In this document: in pieces, positions 1-7,697 of the stretch
Numbering within the stretch: the first letter of the stretch is position 1
How the letters are laid out: each line of letters begins with the position of its first letter
Source of the DNA: Methanobacteriota archaeon
GTDB lineage: Archaea > Halobacteriota > Methanosarcinia > Methanosarcinales > Methanoperedenaceae
Direction of reading: 5' to 3'
Length of the DNA stretch: 7,697 nt
NCBI GenBank assembly: GCA_018899795.1
Contig: JAHIHJ010000353.1
Coordinates: 1-7,697, forward strand
The notes under the pieces: generated by a model
Database searches by the model: none
What the model saw: only the letters and a program-made list of their open reading frames with translations
Told to the model about the DNA's origin: nothing
Translations under genes and position numbers: made by a program

Positions 1-718
1 TGCCCAGTGAGTTAGCGGAATCTGCGATGTCGGAAAGACTTGTCCCCCCATCAGGCAGGACGGGTTTGTGCCCTCCAGGCAATATAGGAGTATCAAGGGT
101 TTCGGAGATATCTGACAGGAATATGCTCTGCACATTCATTAAGCGCAGCATGTTCTTTATCTCCCTGATATCGCCGGGAGTGATTATGCCTGTGATTACG
201 TTTATTTTATTATTAGGTTCACCCTTTACTGCCAGCGTTTCCACAAGCGTCCTCAGGGCATTATCATATCCTGTGAGATGCGTGCCAACATAGCTTGGCG
301 TGGATGCCGGGAATATTTTCATCGTATCATCGGTCAACGCTTTCTTTGCTATCAGTTTCACATCGTCGCCTATGGTCTCGCTCATGCACGTGGTACAAAT
401 ACCAATAGCAGCCGGGTTCAGCCTGGACTTGACGTTCTTTATGGCTTCGGTCAGGTTCTTGGCTCCGCCATATACGGCAGCATCCTCGGCAAGCGATGAA
501 ACTGCAACTTCTGCTGATTCCCTGAAATGGCGCGCGATATTGTAGCGGGGATATGTGCTGCATCCCTGCGAACCGTGGACAAGCGGTACGCAGCCGTGAA
601 CTCCCATGTAAGCAAGTATGGCGCCCATGGGCTGACACATCTTGGGCGGATTAATGGTAACGCTTCGAGTTTTACGAACCGTCTTGATAGACTCAGAACT
701 CGGGTTCATTAAAGCCAT
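1..718 (-). CDS. nifK: Nitrogenase MoFe protein beta subunit NifK, N-terminal 239 residues
   Basis: NifK pairs with NifD in the cytoplasmic MoFe protein and holds half of the P-cluster that passes electrons from NifH to the cofactor. The frame runs off the left edge, so only the N-terminal half (239 codons) is present. Visible P-cluster cysteines are C28 (in KMCQPMGA), C53 (in HGSQGC) and C111 (in TTCMSETIGDD). RHFRE (63-67) and VYGGAKNL (82-89) are further family motifs. The N-terminus is short, without the long extension of the Azotobacter protein, as in anaerobe NifK. The ATG follows the nifD TAA with no gap. A strong Shine-Dalgarno GGAGGTGA lies in the last nifD codons, 5 nt before the start, so translation is probably coupled. 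Residue 146 is Thr where Azotobacter has a Ser near the P-cluster. HGSQGC (not HGGQGC) and the absence of a G-subunit gene point to the Mo type. Confidence 0.95.
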   Translation of the reverse strand, partial: MALMNPSSESIKTVRKTRSVTINPPKMCQPMGAILAYMGVHGCVPLVHGSQGCSTYPRYNIARHFRESAEVAVSSLAEDAAVYGGAKNLTEAIKNVKSRLNPAAIGICTTCMSETIGDDVKLIAKKALTDDTMKIFPASTPSYVGTHLTGYDNALRTLVETLAVKGEPNNKINVITGIITPGDIREIKNMLRLMNVQSIFLSDISETLDTPILPGGHKPVLPDGGTSLSDIADSANSLG

Positions 719-2089
719 TTACTTCACCTCCAGTGGCAGGTTTATGAACTTCCACACAGGGCTGTTCACTGCAACATCAATATCTTTTGCAAAATTCACG
801 AATCCCTCAAATCCCGCATACGGACCTTCTTCGTAGGAATGACCGTTGATAAAGGGAATGCCAAGCTTGTATGTCAGGTATTTCTCCTTCAAGCCGCCGA
901 TAAAGAAATCGGGCTTGAGCTTGACAAGGTATTCCTCGATCTCAAGTGCATTGGGGTTGTCTATACAGATATGCCCTGGCTTTGCCTTCTCCATTATTTT
1001 TTCATAATCGTCCTTGTGACCGAACGTTGTTGCCGTGAGGATCGTTTCGATGCCAAGTTCCCGCATCGGTCCCATCCAGTGCCAGGCTCGCGGTGCTCCC
1101 TGGTATATGAAGCACTTCTTTCCATCGAGTCTCTTTCTATAGTGATCGATCAAGGGCTGGTACTTTGCAACCTCTTCTGCTATCACTTTTTCTGCATTTT
1201 CTTCAAGATGGAAGAACTTTCCTACGTCTCGAAGCGCCTGTGCTGTCTGCTCCATTCCAAACAGGGATACATTGATAAAAGGAACCCCGTACTTGTCCTG
1301 GATCATCTTTGCGATATAGGTGGATGACCTCTGGCACTGCACGATATTCAGCTTTGCCCTGTGCATGATTGGAATATCATTATAGGAGGCGTTGCCTGTA
1401 AAAACGGAAAGCACCCGCACGCCCATCCTTTCAAAAAGTGGCTTGACTATCCAGGCATCGCCGTCAATGTTGAATTCACCGACAATGCACATGTCGTAAG
1501 GCGTGGTCTCTTGCGGTTCTGCTGTTCCAACCACTTTTTCAAACAGCGTTCTGTTGGCTATGTGATGACCCAGCGATTGGCTTACGCCCCTGAAACCCTC
1601 GCAGTGGAAAGGTATCACGGGAATTCCTATCTTTTCCTGCGCCTGCTTGCATATCGCTTCGGTGTCGTCGCCTATGAGTCCGACTACGCAGGTGGAATAC
1701 ACGAACACAGCCTTTCCTTCAGGGAACAATTCGTGTGATTCAATTATGGAATTTAATAGCTTTTTAGCACCTCCATATATTACACTTTCTTCTGTCAGGT
1801 CTGTACTGAAGCAGTACTTCCTGTGCAGCTTCGTGTCTGAAAGGTTTCGCCGCGTGCCCCATGTATAGTAGGCACAGCCAATCGGCCCGTGCACCAGTTG
1901 TATTGCGTCCTTTACGGGCCCGCCTACTACTCCCCTGCACCCTGCGAACGTGCAGCCGCGCTCGGTCATGTCACCAGGAACTGTCTGGACATTGCACATG
2001 GGCAAGACCATGTTCTCAGGGTCATGACATACGATATGCGGCTTACGCTGCGGTATAGGGATGTCGCATTCCGGTAATATTGTTGTCAT
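719..2089 (-). CDS. nifD: Nitrogenase MoFe protein alpha subunit NifD
   Basis: NifD carries the FeMo-cofactor and reduces N2 to ammonia. Its 456 residues include the P-cluster cysteines C46 (ERGCTFAG), C72 (HGPIGC) and C134 (STCVVGLIGDD). Cofactor-pocket residues are R80/R81 (TWGTRRNLSD), Q171 and H175 (GVSQSLGHH), the cofactor ligand C252 (NIVQCQRS), R334, K401 (GLKEKY) and the second ligand H417 (GHSYEEGPY). Spacing between these residues follows the Azotobacter protein closely, so the large internal insertion known from Clostridium NifD is absent. C51 is an extra cysteine five residues from P-cluster C46. The ATG at 2089 has AGGAG 9 nt upstream. The gene follows a 112-nt gap after nifI2 that contains a repeat element, and nifK abuts its stop. 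Overall motif style resembles methanogen Mo-nitrogenase. VnfD and AnfD are unlikely because no G-subunit gene follows. Confidence 0.97.
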   Translation of the reverse strand: MTTILPECDIPIPQRKPHIVCHDPENMVLPMCNVQTVPGDMTERGCTFAGCRGVVGGPVKDAIQLVHGPIGCAYYTWGTRRNLSDTKLHRKYCFSTDLTEESVIYGGAKKLLNSIIESHELFPEGKAVFVYSTCVVGLIGDDTEAICKQAQEKIGIPVIPFHCEGFRGVSQSLGHHIANRTLFEKVVGTAEPQETTPYDMCIVGEFNIDGDAWIVKPLFERMGVRVLSVFTGNASYNDIPIMHRAKLNIVQCQRSSTYIAKMIQDKYGVPFINVSLFGMEQTAQALRDVGKFFHLEENAEKVIAEEVAKYQPLIDHYRKRLDGKKCFIYQGAPRAWHWMGPMRELGIETILTATTFGHKDDYEKIMEKAKPGHICIDNPNALEIEEYLVKLKPDFFIGGLKEKYLTYKLGIPFINGHSYEEGPYAGFEGFVNFAKDIDVAVNSPVWKFINLPLEVK

Positions 2090-2201: not shown

Positions 2202-2558
2202 TTATCTCAATGCCTGTTCTCCGCTCTCTCCTGTTCTCACTCTCATAGCATCCTCGACAGGGCACACGAAGACCTTACCGTCCCCTATCTGCCCTGTCTG
2301 GTTTGTTCTTATTATGGTCTCCACTACTTTCGGAACATCGTCGTCTTCGACCACAGTATATATCATCCTCTTTGGAATGAACTGGAGTCTGTTTTCAGTT
2401 TTTACCTCGTTCATTTCATCGTCTGGCTCTATCAAGCCCCTCTGTTTTCCCCTGCCCTCCACGCTTATCATGGTAAGAGCAGGGACGCCTATGCCCAGAA
2501 GACCAGCCTTTGTCTCCTGTAACCTGTGCCTTCGTATTATAGCGATAACTTCCTTCAT
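2202..2558 (-). CDS. nifI2: PII-family nitrogenase regulator NifI2
   Basis: NifI2 is a GlnB/PII relative. In methanogens NifI1 and NifI2 together bind dinitrogenase and switch it off when ammonia is plentiful; 2-oxoglutarate and ATP relieve this. The 118-residue protein starts MKEVIAIIRRHR (beta-1 of the PII fold). A GRGKQRG motif (35-41) leads into a long T-loop (about 42-62) that ends in FIPKRM. The C-terminal PII signature TGQIGDGKVFV spans 88-98, followed by RTGESG (108-113). The uridylylated Tyr of GlnB is not seen in the T-loop. The ATG is 8 nt after the nifI1 stop. The Shine-Dalgarno AGGTGA (2563-2568) overlaps that TAG stop with a 4-nt spacer. The longer T-loop and second position after nifH separate it from NifI1. 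Confidence 0.94.
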   Translation of the reverse strand: MKEVIAIIRRHRLQETKAGLLGIGVPALTMISVEGRGKQRGLIEPDDEMNEVKTENRLQFIPKRMIYTVVEDDDVPKVVETIIRTNQTGQIGDGKVFVCPVEDAMRVRTGESGEQALR

Positions 2559-2566
2559 ATTTTCAC

Positions 2567-2884
2567 CTATAACCCGGATTCTCCAGTCCTCACAGTGTAA
2601 GCTTCCGAAACATCGGTCACGAATATCTTGCCGTCACCGATATTCCCGGTGCGGGCGCTGTTCTGGATAACATTCAAAGCCTTTGGAACGTCTGCATCCT
2701 CCACAACGAGCATCAGCATGACCTTGGGCAGTTCATCGTAACACACGGTGCCTACCCGGATTCCCTTTTGCTTGCCTCTTCCAAAGACGTTCATTTTTGT
2801 GAGGGAAATAAACCCTTCTTTTTCCAGATGCTCCACGACTTTTTCTTCCTTGTTTGGTCTGATTATTGCACGTATCATCTTCAT
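2567..2884 (-). CDS. nifI1: PII-family nitrogenase regulator NifI1
   Basis: NifI1 is the partner of NifI2 in the PII-like complex that reversibly inhibits the MoFe protein. The start is taken at MKMIRAIIRP, giving 105 residues. An upstream in-frame ATG at 2914 would add ten residues that overlap nifH and match nothing in the family. The chosen ATG lies 4 nt after the nifH stop with GAGGTGA (2889-2895) immediately upstream. The GRGKQKG motif (35-41) precedes a short T-loop ending in ELPKVML (51-57). TGNIGDGKIFV (79-89) is the C-terminal PII signature, and RTGESG (99-104) closes the protein. The position of the GlnB uridylylation Tyr is occupied by Val47 in a hand alignment, so control is probably by ligand binding alone. 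It is co-transcribed with nifH by its spacing. Confidence 0.94.
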   Translation of the reverse strand: MKMIRAIIRPNKEEKVVEHLEKEGFISLTKMNVFGRGKQKGIRVGTVCYDELPKVMLMLVVEDADVPKALNVIQNSARTGNIGDGKIFVTDVSEAYTVRTGESGL

Positions 2885-2888
2885 GTTC

Positions 2889-3794
<906 letters not shown>

Positions 3795-3831
3795 TCAATA
3801 ATAAAAACAATTAATTAATCCGAGCAACAAA

Positions 3832-3839
3832 TTTAAAAG
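3832..3839 (+). promoter_or_regulatory. TATA-like box for the biotin operon
   Basis: TTTAAAAG lies about 45 nt before the bioB ATG and is preceded by a purine-rich ACAAA stretch that could be a BRE. It predicts a transcription start near 3860, inside the BirA-like inverted repeat. The AT-rich surroundings limit confidence. Confidence 0.5.
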
Positions 3840-3872
3840 ATTGTAAACTAATACGCACAAAAAGTTGACAAT
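3840..3872. promoter_or_regulatory. BirA-type biotin operator upstream of bioB
   Basis: ATTGTAAACT (3840-3849) and AGTTGACAAT (3863-3872) form an inverted repeat with 9 of 10 positions matching across a 13-nt gap. If the half-sites are counted as TTGTAAAC and GTTGACAA, the gap is 15 nt. The known BirA operator has half-sites close to TTGTAAAC and GTTTACAA spaced about 15 nt, and it has been described in both bacteria and archaea. The site lies between the TATA-like box and the bioB start, where a biotinyl-AMP-bound BirA would repress. BirA itself is not in the window. Confidence 0.8.
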
Positions 3873-3880
3873 GGTAGGTT

Positions 3881-4855
3881 ATGTTCAAAACAATCAAAAC
3901 AAAAATAGAAAACGGTGAACCAATCAACTTTTCAGACGCCCTTGAACTCATGAACCTGGAGGGACATGAATGTATGGAGCTTTTTTCACTGGCAAACAGG
4001 GTGCGTTCACTGCTCGGTAACAGGGTTGACCTCTGCTCCATCATCAATGCAAAATGCGGTATGTGCCCCGAGGATTGTAAATTCTGTACCCAGTCAGTCC
4101 ATAACGATGCGGAAGTTACTCCTTATCCTCTCATGGAGGAGGAAGAGGTACTGAATCTTGCTCTTATGATGCAGGAAGAGGGGGCTGCCAGGTTCTGTAT
4201 CGTTACCAGCGGGAAAGAGGTGGAAAGTGAGGACTTTGAGAAAATCCTGAGATCTATTCGAAGACTGCGCTCAGAAACCGCATTATCAATATGTGTTTCT
4301 ATCGGGGCGCTCACGGAAAAATCTGCCTGGGCTCTTAAAAAAGCAGGAGTGACCCGGATACACCATAACCTTGAAACTTCAGCCGGGTTTTTTAAGAATA
4401 TATGCACCACGCATTCCTATTCTGAAAAAATAAATGTTATACATATAGCAAGGGCAGCAGGTCTTGAAGTATGCTGCGGAGGGATAATAGGAATGGGTGA
4501 ATCAGTCCACGACATGGTGGAGCTTGCTTTCACCCTCAGGGCTCTGGATGTTGATTCCATACCCATCAATATCTTGAATCCGGTCAAAGGGACATCAATT
4601 CTGACCGTAAAACCAGTCAGTCCCATGGAAGTAATCAAGACAATAGCTGTTTTCCGCCTCATTCTCCCAAAAAAAAACATACGTATTGCCGGCGGGAGGG
4701 AAATAAATCTCAGGGATGTGCAGTGTCTTAGCCTTATGGCAGGTGCAAACGGGTTACTCCTGGGAAACTACCTCACAACTCCAGGCAGAGCCCCAAAGGA
4801 TGATATCCAGATGATCAATGACCTTGGGCTTGTTCCCGGTGGTGTGGATGTATAG
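3881..4855 (+). CDS. bioB: Biotin synthase BioB (radical SAM)
   Basis: BioB inserts sulfur into dethiobiotin to make biotin, using S-adenosylmethionine, a [4Fe-4S] cluster and a sacrificial [2Fe-2S] cluster. The 324 residues contain the radical-SAM motif CPEDCKFC (C62, C66, C69). Equivalents of the [2Fe-2S] ligands are C106 (RFC), C138 (SICVSIG), C198 (EVCCGG) and R268 (IRIAGGRE). HHNLETS (161-167), GGIIGMGE (200-207), PINILNPVKGT (228-238) and MAGANG (286-291) are also family motifs. Length is normal. The ATG at 3881 is the earliest possible start because an in-frame TAG lies at 3875-3877. Its ribosome site is poor, with only GGTAGG close to the ATG. It is the first gene of the biotin operon, under the BirA-like operator, and its end overlaps bioW by 8 nt. 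Confidence 0.96.
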   Translation: MFKTIKTKIENGEPINFSDALELMNLEGHECMELFSLANRVRSLLGNRVDLCSIINAKCGMCPEDCKFCTQSVHNDAEVTPYPLMEEEEVLNLALMMQEEGAARFCIVTSGKEVESEDFEKILRSIRRLRSETALSICVSIGALTEKSAWALKKAGVTRIHHNLETSAGFFKNICTTHSYSEKINVIHIARAAGLEVCCGGIIGMGESVHDMVELAFTLRALDVDSIPINILNPVKGTSILTVKPVSPMEVIKTIAVFRLILPKKNIRIAGGREINLRDVQCLSLMAGANGLLLGNYLTTPGRAPKDDIQMINDLGLVPGGVDV

Positions 4856-5642
4856 CGTGAGGATGAGGGCTGAAAAAGACACAAGGCATATATCAGGAGC
4901 AGAGCAGCTCGTCGAAGAAAATGAGATATCGGATGCTGTATCTACGTTGATTGCCCGGGCGCTTTCACATGACAGGGGAAAACCGGATTCTATCAACATA
5001 ACCATCGACGCATTAAAATTGCCTGTCAAATACCTGGCTTCTCTGCCCGTGACATTATTGCGTGTAGAAAATGCAGAGGAAGGCAAAAATATGGCAAGAA
5101 GGCTGCTCAAGTATATTGGACTGCCTTTTTTTTGCATAGAGAAGGCAATTTCCCTGCTTGAAAACGGACCATGTGACGGAGAGAGCATGAGAGGCGCTAT
5201 TGTAATGGATATGGAGGGAAATCGTCTTGAATCTGATAAACAGAGAGGAATAAGGGCATCACGCATGGGTATTACCAAAGAAGCATCCATTGAGCTTGCG
5301 AGAATGCTTTCCGAGCATGGTCTCTCTTCATGTTACACGCATGTGAGCGAAGCGCTGGTCATTGCCACCAAGGTAGCCTCCATAGATGGAACGATAGCTG
5401 AGCTTTGCTGGTCTGACGACCCATCCTATACAGCAGGCTATGTCTCCTCAAAGAAACTGGGTTACATGAGAATACCACACATGAAGCATGAAGGAGATTG
5501 CCGTGGAGGGAGGGTTTTTTTCGTCGATAATATAGACCCGGATATTTACATTCAGGAGATAGAAAAAAGCCAGGTACTTGTCAATAAGCTCGGAGGAATG
5601 AGGGAGAGCTCCAATAATTTAGATAAATATTTAGGAGAATGA
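4848..5642 (+). CDS. bioW: 6-carboxyhexanoate-CoA ligase BioW (pimeloyl-CoA synthetase)
   Basis: BioW joins free pimelate to CoA with ATP, giving the pimeloyl-CoA that BioF uses. From MYSVRMRAEKD the protein has 264 residues, close to the Bacillus enzyme. Family blocks in order are HISGAEQL (14-21), SHDRGKPD (40-47), RGAIVMD (115-121), RGIRASRMG (133-141), ELCWSDDPSYTAGYV (185-199), KKLGYMRIPHMK (202-213) and GGRVFFVD (220-227). The frame is open ten codons further upstream (ATG at 4818), but those codons lie inside bioB and match nothing in the family. The chosen ATG overlaps the bioB stop in ATGTATAG, suggesting coupled translation. Using BioW implies that pimelate comes from a separate source rather than from the BioC-BioH route. 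Confidence 0.94.
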   Translation: MYSVRMRAEKDTRHISGAEQLVEENEISDAVSTLIARALSHDRGKPDSINITIDALKLPVKYLASLPVTLLRVENAEEGKNMARRLLKYIGLPFFCIEKAISLLENGPCDGESMRGAIVMDMEGNRLESDKQRGIRASRMGITKEASIELARMLSEHGLSSCYTHVSEALVIATKVASIDGTIAELCWSDDPSYTAGYVSSKKLGYMRIPHMKHEGDCRGGRVFFVDNIDPDIYIQEIEKSQVLVNKLGGMRESSNNLDKYLGE

Positions 5643-5646
5643 ATAT

Positions 5647-6645
5647 ATGAAACAACAACAGGTTTTCAGGCAGAAAGAGAAATACGCGGCAGCAAATATC
5701 GCTGTCCTGGGCGCAGGCGGTCTTGGAATGGCAGCCGCCAGAATAATTGCACAGAAAAAAGAGATGAGACTTGTGGCTATTGCAGACAAGACCGGTTTTC
5801 TCACAGATGCAAAAGGAATCAATCCGGAAGTCCTGGAGGATAAAAAGCTTGAAGAAATTGGTAATAGTTCTGACGATACCATAGGTGAAATAATCAAAAA
5901 TTCGGGAAATATAGATGGTATTTTTATCGCCCTTCCAAATCTTTCGAATGATTTCATCCCGAATATAGCCTTAAGATTCGCGCAATATGGTTACAGCGGC
6001 GCAATGGTGGACGTCCTTAAACGTTCCCAGGCTGTTGAAATGATGTTCGGGATAGATGAGCGATTAAGGGATACGGGGATAACTTACATAACCGGGGCTG
6101 GCGCCACGCCCGGATTGCTCACGTGCGCGGCTGCACTTGCTGCGAATTCTTTTATGGAGGTCATGGGGGTTGAGATTAACTTCGGCGTTGGTATATCGAA
6201 CTGGGACTCTTACCGCGCCACCATACGCGAAGACATCGCGCATCTTGAAGGATTCAACCTTGATATCGCAGCAAAAATGACTTGCGCACAAATAAAACAA
6301 GAACTGGACAGCAGGAACGGCATTCTGAAACTGACCAGTATGGAGCATGCCGATGATATACTTCTTGAGAGGGCAGGTATCATAGAGCGAAGTCGAGTGA
6401 ACGTCGGAGGCATGGTTGATACAAGAAATCCCAAAAAACCCGTGAGCACTTCTATGACCCTGACAGGAAGGACATTCGACGGCGCTGTTTCAAGCCACAG
6501 GTTCATTCTCGGTGATGAAACTACCATGGCAGCAAATGTCGTGGGACCTGCACTTGGATGGTTGAAAGCCGCAATGGAATTCCACAGGCGCGGCATATAC
6601 GGTGTATTCGGGTCGGCGGATATAATGCCCAGATTCGTGCAATGA
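5647..6645 (+). CDS. bioU: BioU-like Rossmann oxidoreductase, probable suicide KAPA-to-diamine enzyme
   Basis: The N-terminus has a Rossmann NAD(P) motif, VLGAGGLG (20-27), with an acidic D47 ending beta-2. The 332-residue length and overall look are those of saccharopine-dehydrogenase-like oxidoreductases, among which BioU was recognised in cyanobacteria. BioU converts KAPA to the diamino product (as its carbamate) using the side-chain amine of its own lysine, Lys124 in Synechocystis, so each molecule turns over once. Here K125 in VDVLKRSQAVE is at almost the same position. Other conserved-looking blocks are GAGATPGLLT (150-159), VNVGGMVDT and SSHRFILGDETTMAANVVGP. The gene sits between bioW and bioF, where bioA would be expected, and no aminotransferase gene for that step is seen. 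AGGAG lies 9 nt before the ATG. The family call rests on context, length and the Lys position, not on a database search. Confidence 0.82.
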   Translation: MKQQQVFRQKEKYAAANIAVLGAGGLGMAAARIIAQKKEMRLVAIADKTGFLTDAKGINPEVLEDKKLEEIGNSSDDTIGEIIKNSGNIDGIFIALPNLSNDFIPNIALRFAQYGYSGAMVDVLKRSQAVEMMFGIDERLRDTGITYITGAGATPGLLTCAAALAANSFMEVMGVEINFGVGISNWDSYRATIREDIAHLEGFNLDIAAKMTCAQIKQELDSRNGILKLTSMEHADDILLERAGIIERSRVNVGGMVDTRNPKKPVSTSMTLTGRTFDGAVSSHRFILGDETTMAANVVGPALGWLKAAMEFHRRGIYGVFGSADIMPRFVQ

Positions 6646-7697
6646 AGATGGACTGGCTGGCAGGCGAACTTGCTAATATAAAGAGCAAGGGGCTTTATCG
6701 CGAGCTTAACACCATAGAGGGAGCCCAGGCGCCCAGTATCATGAAAAATGGGAGGGAACTCATACTCCTGTCCTCCAACAATTATCTGGGATTGACCAGC
6801 CATCCAAAGGTAAAAAAGGCAGCAATAGACGCCGTGGAAGAATACGGTACGGGCGCTGGGGGTGCGCGTCTCACCACGGGGAATACCGAACTCCACACCA
6901 ATCTTGAGGAGAAAATAGCCCAGTTCAAAGACACGGAAAGCGCTCTGGTCTTCAGCACAGGCTATATGGCTAATGTGGGGGCGATATCCGCATTGATGAA
7001 AAAAGGCGACCTTATCCTTAGCGATGAACTGAACCATGCAAGCATAATCGACGGGTGCAGGCTGAGCGGCGCGAAGGTCAAGGTCTATCCCCACATGGAT
7101 ATTTCAAGCATTGAGAAAACATTGCGAACGTCAAAACATGGCAAAAAACTCATCGTCACCGATGGTATCTTCAGTATGGACGGGGATATAGCCCCGCTCC
7201 GGGAAATAGTCGAGCTCGCAAAGAACTTCGATGCCATGGTCATGGTGGACGATGCCCACGCCACCGGCGTTCTTGGAAAGCACTGCAGGGGCACAGCCGA
7301 TTATTTTAATGTAGAAGTTGATATTAATATGGGCACCCTGAGCAAAGCGCTTGCAAGCATGGGCGGGTACATAGCCGGAAGTAACGAGCTAATAGACTAC
7401 CTGAGAAACCGTGCCCGCTCTTTTATTTTCTCAACCGCACTACCACCCCCTGCAGCAGCAGCCGCAATTGCCGCGATAGAATGCATCAAAGACGAAAAGC
7501 CTGCAAAAAAACTGTGGCAGAACGTCAGGACATACAAAAAAGGTCTATTAGACCTTGGCTTTTCCATAAAAAGTGAGACCCAGATAATACCTCTTTTTAC
7601 AGGGGATGCAAAAACAACAACAGAAGCTGCCGCTGAACTTGAAAAACTTGGTGTTTATGCGCTTGGAATCCGCCCTCCGGCAGTCCCGGCAGGTAAA
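6642..7697 (+). CDS. bioF: 8-amino-7-oxononanoate synthase BioF, lacking its C-terminal end
   Basis: BioF is a PLP enzyme that condenses pimeloyl-CoA with L-alanine to KAPA, releasing CO2 and CoA. The window contains 352 codons and ends inside GIRPPAVPAGK, a late family motif, so roughly 30-40 residues are missing. Motifs in order are SSNNYLGL (44-51), GAGGARLTTGN (71-81), STGYMAN (105-111), LNHAS with PLP-stacking H132, VDDAHATG (D203/D204 and H206) and GTLSKALASMGGY with the PLP-binding K235. The start ATG overlaps the bioU stop in ATGA; a second ATG two codons later is an alternative. No Shine-Dalgarno site is visible, so translation is probably coupled to bioU. Related 2-amino-3-ketobutyrate CoA ligase (Kbl) has similar motifs, but the bio context supports BioF. 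Confidence 0.94.
   Translation, partial: MKMDWLAGELANIKSKGLYRELNTIEGAQAPSIMKNGRELILLSSNNYLGLTSHPKVKKAAIDAVEEYGTGAGGARLTTGNTELHTNLEEKIAQFKDTESALVFSTGYMANVGAISALMKKGDLILSDELNHASIIDGCRLSGAKVKVYPHMDISSIEKTLRTSKHGKKLIVTDGIFSMDGDIAPLREIVELAKNFDAMVMVDDAHATGVLGKHCRGTADYFNVEVDINMGTLSKALASMGGYIAGSNELIDYLRNRARSFIFSTALPPPAAAAAIAAIECIKDEKPAKKLWQNVRTYKKGLLDLGFSIKSETQIIPLFTGDAKTTTEAAAELEKLGVYALGIRPPAVPAGK

Follow-up and report, generated by a model that had tools for sequence, protein, structure and literature searches.

BioU very probably stands in for BioA in the biotin operon of an ANME-2d archaeon

The window considered here, a stretch of 7,697 nucleotides from a Methanobacteriota archaeon of the family Methanoperedenaceae (assembly GCA_018899795.1, contig JAHIHJ010000353.1), holds between the biotin genes bioW and bioF a gene at 5647..6645 whose product is, by homology and key residues, a member of the BioU family in lineages where it is not so named, with a predicted function. 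We conclude with high confidence that the gene encodes a BioU standing in for the aminotransferase BioA in this archaeon of anaerobic methanotrophic group 2d (ANME-2d), in an operon bioB-bioW-bioU-bioF-(bioD) whose last gene would lie beyond the end of the window. An enzyme already described in cyanobacteria, where it is spent in making a single vitamin precursor, thus very probably fills the same role in archaea that seemed to lack part of the vitamin pathway. This reading draws on homology, the predicted fold, the positions of a lysine and a histidine, the operon, the lack of a BioA above cut-off in relatives, and co-occurrence with bioB and bioD. The gene and its key positions are:

5647..6645, plus strand: bioU, Rossmann dehydrogenase of the BioU family; intact open reading frame, 332 amino acids, ATG to TGA
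5707..5727, plus strand: nucleotide-binding loop LGAGGLG, residues 21-27, from the translation
6019..6021, plus strand: AAA codon of K125, equivalent to Lys124 of Synechocystis BioU, the residue consumed there; from alignment to 6ir4, 6itd and 6k37
6346..6348, plus strand: codon of H234, equivalent to His233 of Synechocystis BioU (H233A in 6k38); from alignment

The window protein matches the family model NF047886 with 427 bits (E value 4e-128) and aligns through residues 12-331, and thus over its full length, with the Synechocystis BioU structure 6ir4 (E 5e-111), values that exclude a chance match. The two proteins are 54-55% identical, and the predicted fold is that of BioU with a Rossmann nucleotide-binding loop, with a root-mean-square deviation (rmsd) of about 1.2 over 315 residues. 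K125 falls on the lysine of 6ir4, and the same position is alanine in 6itd and 6k37, whose entry titles give K124A. A lysine stands there in all 227 aligned rows that have a residue at this position, the histidine of H234 is found in 229/229 rows, and the loop glycines G22, G24, G25 and G27 are kept in 225/225 rows with a residue there. The first-pass annotation had proposed a BioU-type suicide enzyme from a Rossmann oxidoreductase gene between bioW and bioF with K125 at the self-consumed position; the intact frame, the two flanking genes scoring above curated cut-offs, the alignment and the modelled fold all support this.

The residue left in a spent BioU is allysine. In the Synechocystis enzyme, according to the available text of PMC12915131, PMC7133116 and PMC9302846, Lys124 is joined to 8-amino-7-oxononanoate (AON) by a condensation that uses NAD(P)H; after carboxylation of the conjugate, the diamine carbamate is set free by NAD(P)+, and the enzyme that remains lacks its lysine amine. 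Substrate, chemistry and single turnover in the window protein are extrapolated from that enzyme, and the same chemistry is the best inference because both residues mutated there and the fold are conserved. Specifically, BioW would convert pimelate to pimeloyl-CoA and BioF would make AON, after which the side-chain amine of Lys125 would condense with the AON ketone and the imine would be reduced by NAD(P)H. CO2 would carboxylate the amine of the BioU-AON conjugate, NAD(P)+ would oxidise the lysine-side C-N bond, and 7,8-diaminononanoate carbamate would depart with the lysine nitrogen, while BioU would retain allysine at Lys125 and be spent. BioD would then close the ureido ring and BioB would add sulfur.

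The operon recurs in relatives. The twelve ANME-2d-type loci among the best 80 of 539 relatives in a genome scan (L001-L012; L006 and L009 from one genome, L012 outside the tree below, and L002, L004 and L012 with titles that do not name Methanoperedens) show the order bioB-bioW-bioU-bioF-bioD in ten cases, with bioD of L008 scoring 173 bits against a cut-off of 83. L012 ends inside bioU, and the Methanoperedens locus L005 (55-2821) reads bioB-bioU-bioD, with neither bioW nor bioF at the locus, as if the cell imported AON and completed biotin from there. In L007 (7129-8264), the bioF match is split into two pieces that overlap, which may reflect a frameshift or an error in sequencing. Two bins each carry two full, diverged bioU operons (G002 on contig C10, L102 and L113; G006 on contigs C27 and C33, L006 and L009); a second copy would give the cell more of an enzyme that is used once, and G006 is possibly a mixed bin.

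Gene content points the same way. In the 17 genomes behind the archaeal loci, bioB and bioD exceed their cut-offs in 17/17 each and BioA (TIGR00508, cut-off 405 bits) in none, with weaker BioA matches in 15 (best 291 bits). The family of Ca. M. nitroreducens is represented by 34 genomes, of which 16 have BioU, 15 bioB and 14 both (Fisher 1.6e-6, kinship ignored); two have BioU without bioB, the BioU gene being truncated by a contig end in each, and a single one has bioB without BioU. In this family, bioD is present in all 16 genomes with BioU and in none of the 18 others (4.5e-10, kinship likewise ignored). Biotin-protein ligase is found in 16/16 and also in 13 of the 18 that lack BioU, so that many family members that lack the bio operon probably live on outside biotin. 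Across a sample of 392 genomes from the phylum, for which only the best four to five first-look candidates per genome were scored and a few genes were possibly missed, BioU occurs in 27, bioB in 38 and both in 26 (Fisher 2.5e-30), and the two genes lie at most 0.9 kb apart in 26/26 of the latter. A BioA above cut-off appears in one of the 392, a genome that is not among the bioB carriers. Within this phylum of archaea, bioB is usually accompanied by BioU (26/38 bioB genomes).

Several observations weigh against BioU as the replacement of BioA. The 427 bits of the window protein lie below the 600 bits at which the NCBI equivalog model NF047886 confers the name BioU, a cut-off that is a naming threshold and no biochemical feature. 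Of ten other proteins scored, the four cyanobacterial ones pass (602-640 bits) and none of the six others does (369-491); we therefore reject the view that the cut-off disproves the identity, and this behaviour of the cut-off is probably why the Methanoperedens copies bear the public names 'hypothetical protein' or 'saccharopine dehydrogenase-like'. Furthermore, 12 of the 38 genomes with bioB in the sample of the phylum lack BioU, which is therefore not the sole partner of bioB; rechecking these twelve with a BioU alignment (A1, E limit 1e-5) gave short N-terminal matches or nothing, and in three added family genomes it gave two already known cut BioU genes plus short matches. In G186, one of the twelve, a contig ends in a partial BioA-like match of 389 bits, some 1.3 kb away from bioB; the other eleven (G153, G217, G234, G252, G296, G354, G360, G364, G370, G371 and G374) have neither BioU nor BioA above cut-off, which suggests dethiobiotin salvage or a further diamine enzyme. 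The replacement of BioA is, in addition, judged on relatives' genomes and, for the window organism, on the window itself, where the visible part of the operon (bioB, bioW and bioF present) holds no bioA. Finally, when aminotransferase candidates were scanned (the three best of G008, L081-L083, and the sole one of G017, L084), all four scored higher with aminotransferase families other than BioA and L081 and L084 passed the ArgD-type cut-off, while the class III enzymes L082 and L083 reached the cut-off of none of the 25 families that each was listed with.

These two unassigned G008 enzymes lend something to the idea that the window gene is another oxidoreductase, of saccharopine, lysine, diaminopimelate or carboxyspermidine dehydrogenase type, which sits in the operon by chance while an aminotransferase elsewhere replaces BioA. 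The public names of the Methanoperedens copies would fit it, as would the best Pfam match, an ELFV dehydrogenase with 25.5 bits over 59 residues. We consider this very improbable: by sequence the protein was not found to belong to the saccharopine, carboxyspermidine or diaminopimelate dehydrogenase families, and the second-best fold families were rejected as its identity on fold comparison. BioA itself (TIGR00508) is not among the 15 NCBIfam families listed for the window protein at E up to 1. An explanation closer to BioU keeps the product and makes the archaeal enzyme multi-turnover, with free ammonia or lysine regeneration supplying the amine and Lys125 as an ordinary imine-former. Its fold is common to ordinary amine, lysine and diaminopimelate dehydrogenases, and the searched literature, as far as its available text goes, gave no turnover data for a non-cyanobacterial BioU; however, Lys125 and His234 do not vary between cyanobacteria and archaea in the aligned rows, and the closeness in identity and fold to Synechocystis BioU speaks against it as well, so that we hold it to be improbable. 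The self-consuming BioU in place of BioA thus remains the preferred reading.

BioU extends well beyond this window. Near the top of the best 120 of 2231 matches, the named organisms are Candidatus Methanoperedens, Methanosarcinales and uncultured archaea, and the closest named relative among these 120 is 95% identical. In a tree of 57 BioU proteins, drawn with a midpoint root that does not settle the direction of transfer, the window protein groups with 15 other Methanoperedens-type proteins (100/99), in line with the suggestion that BioU reaches another lineage, here ANME-2d. This group is joined (100/97) by one protein each from Argoarchaeum, Ethanoperedens and a Methanosarcinales metagenome-assembled genome, all three of GoM-Arc1, and by the unplaced long-branch protein P0093; the cyanobacterial (100/100) and haloarchaeal-type (100/100) proteins form separate groups. 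The three GoM-Arc1 loci show no bioB or bioF match beside bioU; in L016, bioD lies about 4.7 kb from bioU, and in one GoM-Arc1 genome bioB and bioW are adjacent, away from bioU (L085). Nine haloarchaeal-type loci (L090-L098, out of 23 such genomes) read bioB-bioU-bioF, with no bioW in these stretches of about 3.8-4 kb. We infer the name 'haloarchaea' for these genomes from a 100% match of L098 to Natronobacterium gregoryi, the plasmid matches and the tree. L089 (G151, a 1.9 Mb genome) branches deep with the haloarchaeal type, yet keeps the order bioB-W-U-F-D as in Methanoperedens. Three DPANN loci (L037, L060, L061) hold bioB, bioF, bioU and bioD together, and BioU is rare in the sample of that (Woesearchaeota) phylum (2/371 genomes). 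The Woesearchaeota locus L061 (4471-14636) has, by sequence, bioB, bioF, bioU, bioD, a biotin-protein ligase and apparent acyl-CoA carboxylase genes, which would make up a biotin pathway in a member of DPANN. BioU relatives were absent among 11 pattern matches on viral contigs, and seven plasmid records, all from haloarchaeal genera, include one that covers at least 80% of the query. Many haloarchaeal BioU records carry the NCBI label 'transcriptional regulator' or 'hypothetical protein', and the UniRef name is BioU; the first of these labels is apparently a misannotation. Haloferax mediterranei (P0203) is one haloarchaeon with a bioU.

The remaining genes of the window form two divergent units, nif on the minus strand and bio on the plus strand, with 164 bases between them:

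3881..4855, plus strand: bioB, biotin synthase; TIGR00433 400 bits, cut-off 225
4848..5642, plus strand: bioW, pimelate (6-carboxyhexanoate)-CoA ligase; TIGR01204 200 bits, cut-off 193.55; NF002360 269 bits, cut-off 226
6648..7697, plus strand: bioF, 8-amino-7-oxononanoate synthase, cut by the window end; TIGR00858 437 bits, cut-off 426
3717..3880, no strand: gap of 164 bases between the divergent nif and bio units, from the sequence
2889..3716, minus strand: nifH; TIGR01287 454 bits, cut-off 394; ATG at 3713
2567..2884, minus strand: P-II gene, nifI-type by position; P-II models E 1e-18, below naming cut-offs
2202..2558, minus strand: second P-II gene, nifI-type by position; P-II models E 1.6e-21, below naming cut-offs
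719..2089, minus strand: nifD; TIGR01862 589 bits, cut-off 486
2..718, minus strand: nifK, cut by the window start; TIGR01286 E 3e-55 for the part present

The putative bioW start at 4848, which overlaps the bioB stop, was picked by comparison with L008; the TIGR01204 and NF002360 scores of bioW were computed on the longer frame (longest start 4818), and bioW also matches PF03744 with 264 bits. The bioU stop overlaps or almost abuts the bioF start, with a second bioF ATG at 6642 overlapping it. The gap probably holds putative promoters of both units, and Rfam and tRNA scans of the window returned nothing at the thresholds used. The nif genes that the first-pass annotation had seen next to the biotin genes are confirmed by profile matches (nifH, two P-II genes, nifD and a nifK fragment). 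Because the twelve ANME-2d-type loci have no nif match beside the operon within the flanks examined, this neighbourhood looks incidental, and nif neighbours as an explanation of the bioU gene were rejected on the same ground.

These findings bear on a gap in archaeal biotin synthesis. A 2018 survey (PMC6138646, in the text available) reported a complete gene set among archaea in Methanococcales only, none of bioW, bioF, bioA and bioD in any of 29 Methanosarcinales, and, for 31 Halobacteria, bioA in 0, bioF in 18, bioD in 14 and bioB in 19. BioU would fill this hole, completing the gene set in ANME-2d and a few DPANN genomes and standing beside bioB and bioF in haloarchaea, where the survey had no bioA. 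The literature searched, partly in abridged form and with most subscription papers outside the search, so that an earlier mention is possible, gave no description of an archaeal BioU. A broader proposition is offered tentatively, with doubt slightly prevailing: that self-consuming BioU, not BioA, may be the standard diamine-precursor route in this phylum (ANME-2d, GoM-Arc1 relatives and haloarchaea), that bioB-bioW-bioU-bioF-bioD may be an old operon, and that the cyanobacterial enzyme may be a single branch in a family found for the most part outside cyanobacteria. A methane oxidiser short of energy would, if the enzyme turns over only once, pay one 332-residue protein per biotin, and the cost and use of suicide enzymes would become testable beyond oxygenic phototrophs. 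Lowering the naming cut-off for BioU outside cyanobacteria would mend many records labelled 'hypothetical protein' or 'transcriptional regulator', and perhaps also wrong auxotrophy calls.

Among known systems, BioU (Slr0355) of Synechocystis sp. PCC 6803 is the closest in kind, sharing full-length homology, the predicted fold and the equivalents of Lys124 and His233. In contrast to it, the window gene sits in a bio operon with bioW, and the cyanobacterial loci fetched show no BioB, BioW, BioF or BioD match to archaeal queries within the flanks examined; the window protein also falls outside the cyanobacterial group in the tree (100/100) and is known here from its sequence. Haloarchaeal BioU likewise lies beside bioB and bioF and conserves the lysine and histidine, but is 42-44% identical to the window protein, has its own branch (100/100) and lacks bioW in the nine stretches. 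BioA, the AON aminotransferase (TIGR00508), would serve the same pathway step as the window protein, although it is a pyridoxal phosphate enzyme unrelated to BioU. The Methanococcales set bioW-F-A-D-B, as given in the available text of PMC6138646, shares the archaeal BioW route from pimelate and differs in having BioA where the window operon has BioU.
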